In this document: positions 21,571 to 26,120 of the stretch, in pieces
Position numbering within the stretch: position 1 is the first letter of the stretch
How the letters are laid out: each line of letters begins with the position of its first letter
Assembly (NCBI GenBank): GCA_902776195.1
Contig: CACYPF010000006.1
Location: 62,001-126,000 of the forward strand
Length of the DNA stretch: 64,000 bases
Reading direction: 5' to 3'
DNA from: an uncultured Prevotellaceae bacterium
Lineage (GTDB): Bacteria > Bacteroidota > Bacteroidia > Bacteroidales > Bacteroidaceae
Notes under the pieces: model-generated
Told to the model about the DNA's origin: nothing
The model's input: only the letters and a program-made list of their open reading frames with translations
Databases searched by the model: none
Program-made: the position numbers and the translations under genes

Positions 21571-22590
21571 CTACCTACCCCCATCACAAATCGCCCTCGC
21601 CATCTCATTCAGCTCCAGGCACTGCCCCCGCCTGATAGTCATTTTCTCATTATGATGTTCCCACGGAGCAAGTATCAGTAACTGCCCTCTGGCACAGGCT
21701 TCCATCCGCTTACCACCAGGCTTCGCCAAATCAGTAAAACCGTTCTCCTGCAAATAAATAAGCGGTAGCCCCTCGTCAAAAGCAGCCCTCATAATGACCT
21801 TCTCTCCTTTTGATATTGCAGGCGATACCAGCACAGCCCCTTGTCTTGCCGCTTTCAGACAATCGGCAAGTTTTGCCTGCAACTCTTCCTCCGTCATCCT
21901 TCTGGAGCATTGTACCTGCAACTTCATCGGCCGTTCTAACAAGAAGCGGTTACCAATAGCCGAAAAACTCAACCCCGCATACGTCAACCCCCTCTGTACC
22001 CTAAACAGTTCAGGATGCTCCCTTTTCATCAACAAGCGACGAGGGTTATCCCTTACATAGTGAAGCCAATGCTCCAACTGCCCATCCCTGAACAATATCT
22101 GGTCATTAAACCCTTTCGTAAACAGCAGCCCATTCCCTCTCGATTGTCCCGCATGTTGCTGTGCCACAGCAACAAAAGACTCAGACATCATCTGCCGAAA
22201 CACCTGGTTACAAGCCTGTTTTACCCCTAATAGCACCTTCCCTAACGGCTTCTCCAACCTTTCCTTCACAAAGAGTACCACATGCAGATGGTCTGGCATC
22301 ATCTGTAGAGCCAACACCTGCACCTCTGGATGATGAACACCAATAGTCTTCCATATCTGCTCCACTGCCTCACCCAATGGTGACAACTCAATATGAGGGA
22401 CCTCTGCCGACGGCTCTACCGCCTCACTATGTCCCACCACCTTGCCGAAGAGCGGTTTACGCCCCTCTGTCACCATCGTGATCATATACATCCTCCGCCC
22501 TGTGTAGTCATAATCCACACAGCGACGTTGCATCGAGGGTTTCTTCTCCCCTGCAAAAGCCTTCTGCCTTTCAAATGTTGCTTTATCCAT
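21571..22590 (-). CDS. REP-associated Y1-type transposase fused to a DprA/SLOG-like domain
   Basis: 339 residues. Residues about 25-200 look like a Y1/IS200-type HUH transposase (REP-associated class): strand pattern YMITMVTEGRKPLFG, the metal-binding PDHLHVVLFV (H101, H103) and the downstream FNDQIL...WLHYVRDNPRR block. The helix after HUH, where the catalytic tyrosine is expected (about 118-132), contains no tyrosine. Residues about 245-339 form a separate alpha/beta domain (VLVSPAISKGEK, LPLIYLQENGF, KPGGKRMEACARG, LLILAPW), reminiscent of DprA/SLOG nucleotide-binding proteins. No terminal inverted repeats of an IS are seen, so this is probably a single-copy domesticated gene; its function is unknown. 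Confidence 0.75.
   Translation of the reverse strand: MDKATFERQKAFAGEKKPSMQRRCVDYDYTGRRMYMITMVTEGRKPLFGKVVGHSEAVEPSAEVPHIELSPLGEAVEQIWKTIGVHHPEVQVLALQMMPDHLHVVLFVKERLEKPLGKVLLGVKQACNQVFRQMMSESFVAVAQQHAGQSRGNGLLFTKGFNDQILFRDGQLEHWLHYVRDNPRRLLMKREHPELFRVQRGLTYAGLSFSAIGNRFLLERPMKLQVQCSRRMTEEELQAKLADCLKAARQGAVLVSPAISKGEKVIMRAAFDEGLPLIYLQENGFTDLAKPGGKRMEACARGQLLILAPWEHHNEKMTIRRGQCLELNEMARAICDGGR
22155..22173. repeat. REP-like palindrome inside the transposase-like gene
   Basis: GTTGCTGTG-C-CACAGCAAC is a perfect palindrome with a single-base centre. It shares the 17-bp core TTGCTGTGCCACAGCAA with 21532-21550. Confidence 0.55.
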
Positions 22591-23589: not shown

Positions 23590-24128
23590 TCAGTCTTTCT
23601 CTCGCGCGTGCGCGCACTATAAATTTTTAAACCCTTGTCACCGTTGTCACCTTGCAAAACCACTTGATAATCAGGAGATTACGGTAACAACGAGGTGGCA
23701 AGGGTGACAACGATTGGCGATTTTGACCTTAAAATGAGTGAAAAAACGCTTCTCCTTGCGAAGCCTTAGGCTCCGAAGGGTGAAGGTGCCGCCTCCAAGG
23801 GTTGAAGGTGCCGCCTTCAAAGGTCGTAGATGCCGGCTTCGTGAGGCATGGGGATTATCTCCAAGGGGCTTGGGGATACCTCCGATACCCCCATGGAGAT
23901 GCTTCCCAACACCCTTGGGAGGTATCTTAATACCCCCATAACAGGTATCGGAACAAGGGATGAACGATATCTTTATCAAATGAAGGCTCTAATTGGGTCA
24001 ATTAAGGGCTTTAATTGACTTGAATAAGGGCTTTAATCGGTATGAAAGTGGGCTTTAATCGGTAACAAAACAGGGGTTAGTCGGTAACTGAATGCCCTTC
24101 AGTCGGTAACTGATTCCGAAAAATTTTT
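23590..24128. repeat. non-coding block of degenerate dispersed repeats (copy A, left part)
   Basis: No gene is seen. The block holds an alternating CG/GT tract near 23605; an inverted pair around GTTGTCACC (about 23645 and 23705); GC-rich modules built on GGTGCCGCCTCC / GCCGGCTTC (about 23785-23850); short blocks such as TACCCCCATAAC with TATCGGAAC; a run of related units containing GGGCTTTAAT (about 24000-24065); and units with AGTCGGTAACTGA. The GC-rich, TACCCCCATAAC and AGTCGGTAACTGATTCCG parts recur in the same order at 55865-56147. Confidence 0.65.
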
Positions 24129-24356
24129 GAGAAAATCGAAAAAACTAGTCCCCTTCTCCCGTCAGGTGGCTCAAACCCCGATAAATAAAGGGCGCAGGGC
24201 ACGGGAGTAGTTGGTTGAACATCTCCCATACTTCTCCCGTTGATTCGAAAGGGAGTAGTACGGGACTAGTTGGAGCAACTACTCCCGTCGTGAAACGCCC
24301 CGTACATCGGCATTTCAGAAGAAAAAGGGAGAAGGGGACTAGTTTTTTTGATTCTC
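24129..24356. mobile_element. 228-bp MITE-like element, copy A
   Basis: Bounded by terminal inverted repeats of about 30 bp: 24129-24160 ending CTAGTCCCCTTCTCCC, and 24328-24356 starting GGGAGAAGGGGACTAG. A nested pair GGGAGTAGTTG / CAACTACTCCC lies inside. The element recurs with the same length (228 bp) and high similarity at 56148-56375. No coding capacity; the whole element can fold into one long hairpin. The transposase that would move it is not in the window. Confidence 0.7.
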
Positions 24357-24585
24357 TTATAGTCATATAGAGAATCATGGGGTCGGTTCTAGTGATCATT
24401 TTTCAGTTTCTGAATAACTCCAAACGAAACGCCCGTCAGCCGGGACAGTTGTCTGACTCCTGCCCCAAAGGAAAAAGCATAACTTAACACTTCATTCCGT
24501 TAGAGTCCCCAGTTTTCTCTATGGAAATCTTGTGCAAATATAGCGTTTTTTTAGATGAAAACGACACTAATTCCTAAAAATTACG

Positions 24586-24593
24586 TACCTTTG
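24586..24593 (+). promoter_or_regulatory. promoter of the 24600 RNA
   Basis: TACCTTTG -7 box followed by CA; predicted start about 24598-24600. Confidence 0.65.
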
Positions 24594-24599
24594 CATCGT

Positions 24600-25031
24600 T
24601 TTCTGAACCCGTACCAGCATACAGGCTTGTTTCGAAAGGCTTTGCCACTTGCAACCAGAGGGATGCAAGAACAGGACACACGAATGCCGAAGCCCCTGGG
24701 TAGAGGCAGCGGGACGGGGAACCTATATATAGGAAAGGCGTTCTTGTAAAGGACAAGCGCTCAAAACGCAAGTCCTTGACGCTTTGTACTTGACGCACAG
24801 GAATCTGGCAGTTCCAAACTAATCGTCAAAACTACAAGGCAACAATGACGCTCATGGGTATGTATTAAAAAACATACCTACATTTGGCATAGGTCTTATT
24901 GGCTTCATGCCATAGTAGTGTATGTATACATATCGGCGTGGGCTTCGGCGTTGCTCGTTCTGACGATTAAGGCAATGCCAGAGCCTCTGTGCGTGGGACG
25001 GGTAACAAGTTGAATTCCCACGCATTTTTTT
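24600..25031 (+). ncRNA. ~430-nt highly structured non-coding RNA of unknown class
   Basis: Framed by a TAnnTTTG promoter and a strong terminator. Local hairpins: CTTGCA/TGCAAG (24648-24669); CCCC/GGGG (24693-24719); CCTATATATAGG (24722-24733); AAGGAC/GTCCTT (24749-24777); GGTATGT/ACATACC (24857-24878); TGGCAT/ATGCCA (24885-24912); GGCGTTGC/GCAATGCC (24947-24979). The ends can also close on each other: ACCCGT 24607-24612 with ACGGGT 24998-25003. No convincing ORF lies inside. It does not show the RNase P core (GAGGAAAGUC) or the tmRNA ends. It could be an independent RNA or a long leader of the acyltransferase gene at 25095. Confidence 0.6.
24990..25031 (+). terminator. terminator of the structured RNA
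   Basis: TGCGTGGGA 24990-24998 pairs perfectly with TCCCACGCA 25016-25024, followed by seven T's. Confidence 0.8.
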
Positions 25032-25094
25032 ATATATAAGCCTTAAGAATTGTTCCACCAGCCTCGGGAGTTCACTGGTTATGAAGAACTAATT

Positions 25095-26120
25095 ATGGCA
25101 AATAAAGGCAAGCATTTACCTGATTCTGTTTCCCGAAGGTCTGACAAGATCACTATTCTTTCTTTTTTTATGATGCTGGGCATTGTATGGACCCATTCGC
25201 GACTGCCCGACTGGAATGTTGTACCGGATTATTTCCACCAGCTGGTCTTGTGGAATGAGATAGGCCAGGATACTGTTGCAGCCTTTTTCTTAATCACCGC
25301 ATTTCTGTACTTTCGCAACTTCAGCATAGAAAAATATACCGAGAAGCTAAAGACGAGGTTCTATTCTCTCATCATACCCTACCTCATCTGGAATACCCTG
25401 AATGCTGTTGGCTGGTTCGTGACAACCCGTCTAACCGGAAATCAGTACGTAAACGACAGCTTCACCTTCGATTCTGTCTGGCATTTCGTAGCCGACATAG
25501 TGGCAAGCAAGTTCTCTGTACTGTGGTATGTCGGGGTCATTATAGTGTATGCCGTTGCTTCGCCCGTGTTCTATTACTTAGGGCGTAACAAACGCGTTGC
25601 CACAGCCTCCATTATTGTGTTTCTCATTATCGGCATATCGTTTCACCATCCCTTCTGCAGCCCTATTGTATGGATGTCCATCTACATGATGGGAGCCTAT
25701 CTTGGTATGCATCACAAAGATTACATGTTTGGTCACCAGCCGGTGTCTGTTACGATAGTAGCCCTTTTGGCTTTTCCTTTGTCTGTATGGTATAGCCACA
25801 TGCACGACACTATGTTGGCCGTTAATATAAGGACGTGGGCGTCAGCCTTCTTCTTTATCGGCATCTACGATGTGTTTGACAGGATTCTCCATTTCAAGGT
25901 GCACCACATATATAAATACACCTTCTTCCTCTATGCCACTCATTATATCCTTGTACATGTAGGCCAGCGGTATATTATTGTCAATGCCAACAACGTTGCG
26001 GGATGCTGGCTGGCATACGTGCTTGTACCCCCTCTTGTTGTCGTCGTTTGCCTTTCTGCGGCCTACATACAGGACAAGCACCTTCCAAGGCTATACGACA
26101 TACTGACAGGACAGCGATAG
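25095..26120 (+). CDS. acyltransferase family 3 (membrane O-acyltransferase)
   Basis: 341-residue integral membrane protein with about ten hydrophobic segments. The N-terminal signature fits acyltransferase-3: the first segment FFMMLGIVWTHS carries the expected conserved His (about residue 33), followed by the loop to FFLITAFLYFRNFS and IPYLIWNTLNA. Such enzymes transfer acetyl or other acyl groups to surface glycans or secreted molecules. I start at the ATG at 25095; a TTG at 25050 is in frame but not needed. No glycan cluster lies nearby. It sits 64 nt after the RNA terminator, which may control its expression. Confidence 0.85.
   Translation: MANKGKHLPDSVSRRSDKITILSFFMMLGIVWTHSRLPDWNVVPDYFHQLVLWNEIGQDTVAAFFLITAFLYFRNFSIEKYTEKLKTRFYSLIIPYLIWNTLNAVGWFVTTRLTGNQYVNDSFTFDSVWHFVADIVASKFSVLWYVGVIIVYAVASPVFYYLGRNKRVATASIIVFLIIGISFHHPFCSPIVWMSIYMMGAYLGMHHKDYMFGHQPVSVTIVALLAFPLSVWYSHMHDTMLAVNIRTWASAFFFIGIYDVFDRILHFKVHHIYKYTFFLYATHYILVHVGQRYIIVNANNVAGCWLAYVLVPPLVVVVCLSAAYIQDKHLPRLYDILTGQR

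Follow-up and report, generated by a model that had tools for sequence, protein, structure and literature searches.

A large, multi-copy family of structured RNAs in Bacteroidales, probably attenuator-like gene leaders, with an unusual post-terminator hairpin

Positions 24600-25031 of the window (the whole stretch of 64,000 nucleotides of DNA from an uncultured Prevotellaceae bacterium analyzed here) raise the question of what kind of RNA they encode, and whether this RNA stands alone or belongs to the transcript of the acyltransferase gene downstream. The initial annotation read the region as an undescribed structured RNA, or as a long regulatory leader of that gene, flanked by a promoter and a terminator. 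The sequence agrees with its description of the ends: the element TACCTTTG, which we take to be a -7 promoter element of the Bacteroidota type, is present at 24586-24593, seven T's (25025-25031) stand behind a terminator-like stem, and the ATG of the acyltransferase gene at 25095 lies 64 nt past 25031. As was also noted, no open reading frame (ORF) fits the RNA, those of 64, 68 and 74 aa covering parts of it only; a coding sequence is rejected on this ground and because the region evolves by compensatory base-pair change. The 432 nt have a minimum free energy (MFE) of -159.5 kcal/mol (z = -6.26), and none of 100 dinucleotide shuffles folds as well.

Known RNA families do not account for the region. 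The covariance-model search suggested with the initial annotation was run with cmscan and the 4227 families of Rfam 15: the whole window yielded no match at gathering score, and 24400-25120 gave two chance snoRNA matches only at E<=10 (E 4 and 9.4), below cut-off. ARAGORN reported neither tRNA nor tmRNA, and the relatives of the RNA described below, scanned against Rfam at E<=1 (7 loci) or at gathering score (18 loci), were without a match to the RNA itself. Through these scans tmRNA and RNase P RNA, whose signature segments the initial annotation had noted as missing, and any other Rfam RNA are rejected. Bacteroidales-1 RNA (RF01693; 179 model positions), like the present family a structured RNA of this order, occurs in the same genome at a separate locus (G000:C1:104298-104476, 120 bits), and 24400-25120 has no match to it at E<=10. 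In Prevotella sp. tc2-28, the leader and the next longer ORF are separated by a DUF805b RNA (RF02914, L079 7067-7101; 38.7 bits with a cut-off of 35.6), which was not seen in the window or in any of the 24 further relative loci compared with Rfam. A search of PMC full texts, supplements excluded, found no description of the family, and the available portions of PMC2864571, PMC8040213, PMC7366714, PMC11109978 and PMC8632094 do not describe it.

Relatives were gathered from GTDB genomes by scanning for exact copies of a conserved pattern of 23 bases, which returned at least 119 stretches. Positions 24936-24958 are therefore nearly invariant by construction, and helices P4 and P5 (Table 1), whose 3' strands fall within the pattern, carry little weight. 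An alignment of 78 non-redundant relatives was used for column-pair tests; TANNTTTG was required 180-260 nt upstream (the window excepted) together with enough flank, and near-duplicates were removed. In APC-corrected G-tests over 71,253 column pairs, the top 11, with a robust z of 30-76, all fall in P1, P3 and the pseudoknot, and the first column pair that is not base-paired scores a robust z of 22. P1 reaches the z of 76 and has changes on both sides in seven of its eight pairs, P3 in all seven (86.6% of cells paired), while the pseudoknot helix is paired in 99.5% of cells. P0 shows one-sided changes only, and the pairs of the 5' closing helix occur as up to five pair types each. G-U pairs are common in the helices.

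A second test, with a separate MAFFT alignment (64 of the 76 usable sequences) and a 43-pair model, gave 96.1% of cells paired across the 64 sequences, against 84.8% in shuffled alignments and 33-43% when partners were slid. In this model 18 of the 43 pairs change on both sides, in 337 cells versus 101 after shuffling, and none of 500 shuffles reaches the observed value on any of five measures. Covariation thus exceeds shuffles, slides and background column pairs, nulls that ignore the kinship of the sequences, and by this comparison 24600-25031 belongs to a real structured RNA family. Relatives with compensatory changes in Bacteroidales, many copies inside one order and the lack of an Rfam match strongly support the view that the RNA is structured and had gone undescribed.

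Table 1. Features of the RNA locus in the window, with the evidence for each
Feature	Position	Strand	Evidence
Bacteroidota-type -7 promoter element (presumed) TACCTTTG	24586..24593	+	sequence; conservation in relatives; TANNTTTG counts
5' domain, closing helix 24598-24603 x 24717-24722	24598..24722	+	helix pair types
Large structured RNA, putative leader	24600..25031	+	fold energy, alignments, covariation
Segment missing in typical relatives, within 5' domain	about 24611-24683	+	alignment
Second segment missing in typical relatives, inside hairpin 24736-24740 x 24780-24784	24743..24772	+	alignment
Helix P0: 24785-24787 x 25005-25007 and 24789-24792 x 24999-25002; candidate antiterminator	24785..25007	+	96-97% of cells paired
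Helix P1: 24793-24800 x 24987-24994	24793..24994	+	strongest covariation
Hairpin 24801-24803 x 24812-24814, with loop pairing 24804-24809 x 24977-24982 as pseudoknot	24801..24982	+	covariation
Helix P3: 24820-24826 x 24963-24969	24820..24969	+	covariation
Helices P4 (24839-24843 x 24950-24954) and P5 (24850-24856 x 24937-24943)	24839..24954	+	alignment; little weight
Variable apical domain beyond P4/P5	about 24864-24927	+	alignment
Intrinsic-terminator-like element GCGTGGGA (24991-24998) x TCCCACGC (25016-25023), T7 25025-25031	24991..25031	+	sequence; helix conservation
Post-terminator hairpin ACCAG/CTGGT	25057..25079	+	loop-arm complementarity, flank pairing
Acyltransferase gene	25095..26120	+	ORF list; Pfam Acyl_transf_3, E 9e-18

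The window's copy is, on the aligned sequences, a long variant of the family: most members measure about 265-330 nt, and the window's promoter stands 350 nt ahead of the conserved motif, the longest such distance of the 101 loci with one among the matches listed. This bears on the end-to-end closing stem (24607-24612 x 24998-25003) of the initial annotation, which is present in the window sequence and in its MFE fold. Its 5' side is the edge of the first segment that typical relatives lack (start at 24604-24611 by alignment, to about 24683), and relatives pair 24999-25002 with 24789-24792 instead, so that the stem is not conserved and is rejected. At the other end, the RNA feature extends past 25031 and includes the hairpin 25057-25079.

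The family is confined mainly to one order. Within the genus, a DNA search matched 81 of 200 genomes, own genome included. The taxon labels of the 119 stretches listed by the pattern scan are Bacteroidales or groups within it, apart from one 'uncultured Clostridia' (L130) and one given only as 'Bacterium' (L084). R1, a covariance model built for the 3' domain from 60 of the 78 sequences (111 positions), extends this picture: at E<=1e-6 it matched 138 of 199 genomes of the genus, with up to 15 copies per genome, and 49 of 295 of the order, and in a phylum-wide sample none of 246 other genomes, the sole match there being the own genome. At the stricter E<=1e-10 the counts are 128 of 199 and 32 of 295 (own genome included). 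These searches of sampled genomes ran with stricter filters, which lose weak matches, and R1 also gives the reverse strand of the copy in the window a score of 25.7 bits, so that weak matches need care. Phages gave no leader match and viral contigs no exact match to the 23-base pattern, and a phage element is rejected on these results.

Nine leader copies were found by R1 in the own genome at E < 1e-4. Among the eight outside the window (L165-L172), six form a second subfamily (ACGTGGGCAGGCTTGAAGTTGCTTATCC...) with 79-93% mutual identity, versus about 41-49% identity to the remaining two; several copies stand before large genes whose products, judged by eye, are secreted or BspA-like. L165 precedes a gene resembling short-chain dehydrogenases, also named by eye. 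A further stretch of the own genome (L002 1501-1552; G000:C17:43788-43839) is a partial, apparently decayed copy, in which about 52 nt match at 81%, a short piece of the 5' part is also left, and no 3' domain is recognizable. Two plasmid records of Phocaeicola isolates from human faeces, P. dorei CL06T03C03 (L198 4001-4106) and P. vulgatus CL10T00C06 (L199 2501-2606), circular and of 95,237 and 92,536 bp, respectively, each carry a copy that R1 scores at 77.2 bits. Both copies precede a hypothetical gene, with an SSB gene about 2.2 kb away. The P. dorei copy departs from the search pattern and is therefore not a product of it; by eye, TATATTTG, the terminator and the hairpin follow one another there in that order.

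Among the matches listed, 100 of 110 loci have TANNTTTG upstream of the RNA, versus 13.4 expected from mononucleotide shuffles, and one of 110 has it between terminator and gene, versus 6.0 expected. Of 113 listed loci, 101 have it 180-360 nt ahead of the motif, 79 of these at 184-250 nt. Ahead of the promoter, relatives show weak conservation from about 24545 on, and no obvious conservation was seen beyond promoter and hairpin within the ~70 nt outside the promoter and ~30 nt past the terminator that were covered. The next ORF is co-directional in 107 of 120 listed loci (opposite in 5, none called in 8), whereas upstream neighbors are balanced (57 on the plus and 46 on the minus strand, 103 loci listed). 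For 68 of the 107 co-directional ORFs, the start falls 140-179 nt from the motif, and an ATG ORF of at least 40 aa begins 20-140 nt past the terminator stem in 96 of the 110 loci (median 74 nt), several of the other 14 showing short ORFs near the expected start (all among the matches listed). In the second subfamily of the own genome the first long ORF begins 52, 102 or 320-328 nt after the model match (none at L169), and on the P. dorei and P. vulgatus plasmids the annotated CDS starts 66 nt past the match.

Since the promoter lies upstream and none lies between RNA and gene, the mRNA of the gene should begin with the RNA. A promoter upstream, a co-directional gene downstream and no promoter between them are the position of an attenuating leader, and the data favor a leader over a free-standing RNA. 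Against the leader reading count the length of the RNA, which is long for an attenuator, and the spacing, which is not fixed everywhere. The suggestion that the RNA might be a leader of the acyltransferase gene is thus favored, with co-direction, spacing, the missing internal promoter and a co-varying post-terminator element behind it; the family, however, is not tied to acyltransferases.

This was examined in the proteins encoded beside the relatives, of which 86 of 93 non-redundant downstream and 86 of 93 upstream proteins were scanned. Downstream, Pfam families include LRR_5 (9 proteins), DUF2971 (6), AbiH (5) and Pkinase (2); the acyltransferase types are one Acyl_transf_3, the window's own, and one MBOAT, so that the constant position before acyltransferase genes that the initial annotation had named as possible support is not seen. 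Flanks of 1.5 kb were checked with an HMM of the core and with R1. Four homologous acyltransferase loci (63, 61, 53 and 32% identity; from the 199 other genomes of the genus) had no leader copy, and the loci of AbiH homologues had none detected at 17 of 18 and one copy at 1 of 18; one locus of this set (L194) has only 152 nt upstream and cannot tell. A regulator specific to acyltransferases is rejected on the single Acyl_transf_3 among 86 proteins and the four homologous loci, and because the closest acyltransferase homologues found lack the leader, it appears portable. The 86 downstream proteins represent 35 Pfam families (107 over the 86 upstream) and share no pathway, which speaks against a simple metabolite switch and would be unusual for a riboswitch. 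As the families were compared by name for the first 25 of each set, none is claimed to be missing upstream. PADLOC named AbiH in 5/86 and PDC-S31 in 5/86 downstream proteins; no enrichment in defense genes is claimed, since the upstream control matches more PADLOC models (85 families, versus 50 downstream).

How the RNA may act on the gene is suggested by its 3' end. The terminator-like hairpin with its T-run is conserved, with 95% of cells paired, and covaries weakly: three of six pairs change on both sides, in six cells in all; two-sided pairs are as numerous in 16 of 500 shuffles and pair types in 303 of 500, and sliding the partners by -1 to -3 gives higher covariation scores than the true register. 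The T-run is interrupted in some members and absent in L122. The terminator scan of the window does not list the element, because the scan allows loops of at most 8 nt and the stem encloses 17. P0 draws on the loop of the terminator and P1 on the 5' side of its stem (the first four of eight bases), so that an intact core should oppose the terminator. With a pseudoknot-free energy model, the predicted probability of the terminator helix in 75 full leaders averages 0.25 in the terminated and 0.16 in the read-through transcript; it exceeds 0.5 in 24% of the terminated leaders and is 0.50 for the 3' domain alone. In the window the values are 0.64 and 0.02. The model is only weakly consistent with a switch.

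The hairpin behind the terminator, 15 nt ahead of the start codon, adds a second, less usual link. Its loop GGGAGTTCA (25066-25074) is complementary to the terminator 3' arm TGAATTCCC (25011-25019), and the two vary together. Arms score on average 16.1 against their own spacer, 14.2 (SD 0.17) against spacers swapped among loci and 11.5 against shuffled spacers (n = 118 among the matches listed, L044 dropped); in the non-redundant set (n = 78) the values are 15.8 for own and 14.06 for swapped spacers, and none of 2000 permutations is as high. An exact 6-mer complement of the arm is found in the own spacer at 25 of 78 loci, versus 15.8 expected with swapped spacers, and for arms other than ACTCCC at 10 of 42, versus 1.7 expected; such departing arm/loop pairs include GATTCC/GGAATC, ACTCTC/GAGAGT and TCTCCC/GGGAGA. 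The stems flanking the loop differ among loci yet pair (score 5.84, versus 4.46 in shuffled flanks), with a score above control in 76 of 93 listed loci, 17 of the 110 without a clear element being left out. At some loci, e.g. L034, L046, L118 and L122, the loop-arm match is weak or absent. We know of no described attenuator design in which a post-terminator loop co-varies with the terminator.

Our preferred reading, which we consider probable, is that 24600-25031 is the long 5' untranslated attenuating leader of the acyltransferase transcript, a member of an order-specific multi-copy family and a switch under the control of a signal. From the arrangement of the elements we infer expression, termination, the switch and its direction, a role of P0 as antiterminator, and a deciding signal. 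Transcription would start at the conserved promoter and yield the pseudoknotted RNA. In the OFF state, the terminator hairpin 24991-24998 x 25016-25023 would form with its U7 tract and stop transcription; in the ON state, the lower helices P0 and P1 would be kept, occupying the loop bases of the terminator along with part of its 5' arm, and the polymerase would read through. In the read-through mRNA the freed 3' arm of the terminator would be captured by the loop of the hairpin 25057-25079, which would lock this form and may also set ribosome access. A role of the loop in switching is a guess, since it is transcribed after the terminator and cannot itself prevent termination. As the same leader stands before unrelated accessory genes, one shared signal (a protein, an RNA, a ligand or a state of the transcription complex) would govern a dispersed gene set. 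Those genes are mostly uncharacterized and encode BspA-like repeat proteins, AbiH, DUF2971, kinases, lipoproteins and acyltransferases.

More tentatively, the leader might be a portable 'expression gate' specific to Bacteroidales, in which accessory genes are silenced by termination until a shared signal arrives and terminator-arm capture then latches the open state. A global regulon would then be set by an RNA leader, instead of by a promoter motif or a metabolite. If the leader reading is right, a common large RNA controls many poorly understood accessory genes, some resembling phage-defense or surface-protein genes, and adds a new regulatory layer in a dominant bacterial order of gut and rumen. 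The family ties genes without an assigned function into a candidate regulon, and the plasmid-bearing Phocaeicola isolates are strains where the leader can be tested.

Among the alternatives, a free-standing RNA acting in trans fits the own promoter and terminator-like end, the several copies per genome, and the complementarity of the 3' arm to an mRNA hairpin loop; the exposed 3' arm of the terminated product (of the GACUCCC type) would pair with loops of the GGGAGUC type in hairpins of mRNA 5' regions, that of the neighboring gene included. We regard it as unlikely: the next gene is co-directional and at similar spacing, the complementarity is locus-specific, and a promoter separates RNA and gene at so few of the listed loci (1/110) that the mRNA of the neighbor should carry the RNA in cis.

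Quite unlikely, in our judgment, is an RNA of processive antitermination, whose fold would make the passing polymerase, by direct action or with the help of a NusG-like factor, ignore local and later terminators. Such control is exerted by put and EAR elements and at LoaP targets, and by UpxY at the capsule loci of Bacteroides. This mechanism would call for what is seen here, a large RNA independent of the gene, placed where transcription units begin and right before a terminator-like element; the family shares with these systems, as proposed here, a leader element that lets polymerase pass terminators irrespective of the gene. The co-variation of loop and terminator is, however, a feature of the family that those systems lack as far as we know them, and processive antitermination by itself leaves it unexplained.

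The attenuating leader reading places the family near riboswitches, T-boxes and other transcription attenuators, with which it shares a 5' leader, a promoter of its own and a core fold that overlaps, through its lower helix, an intrinsic terminator ahead of the coding region. Unlike them, it is larger (about 265-430 nt), precedes unrelated genes, carries an extra post-terminator hairpin whose loop matches the terminator 3' arm, and has no Rfam match. We regard it as a new family of large leaders, independent of the gene and attenuator-like, with an unusual post-terminator element. GOLLD, ROOL and OLE are likewise large, elaborate bacterial RNAs (of the ornate type treated in the available part of PMC12286853), unlike which the present family sits as a leader before a gene. 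The smtA motif or 'Soda Lake RNA' is, in the portion of PMC11109978 available, a covarying RNA of >350 nt upstream of a gene, with a function not known; it shares size, covariation and position with the family, but is confined to one genus (Thioalkalivibrio) and one gene, whereas the family is dispersed before unrelated genes.

Very improbable is a mobile or recombining DNA element, such as a MITE-like repeat or a gene-cassette junction, with hairpins that work as single-stranded DNA and with incidental transcription: the dispersed, portable copies, the two on plasmids, the inverted repeats nearby (24130-24357) and the 79-93% identity of six own-genome copies, from which it follows that duplication occurs, would suit it, but the conserved promoter at the 5' end and terminator-like element at the 3' end, the frequent G-U pairs expected of RNA, and the lack of obvious conservation outside promoter and hairpin in the flank covered do not. 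Among the listed loci no recurrently linked transposase family was seen, a single transposase-like cluster, recognized by eye, occurring at 5 of 120. Similar to that cluster by eye is an ORF of 339 aa in the window (21571-22590, minus strand), itself resembling by eye a REP-associated or Y1-type transposase. Upstream of the leader promoter, the repeat 24130-24357 has 31-nt arms (24130-24160 and 24327-24357) that are 94% complementary, and it encloses an inner inverted repeat (24201-24241/24248-24288) in a MITE-like arrangement. Further upstream, 23771-23836 and 23976-24041 hold two intergenic families of three tandem imperfect 22-nt repeats each.
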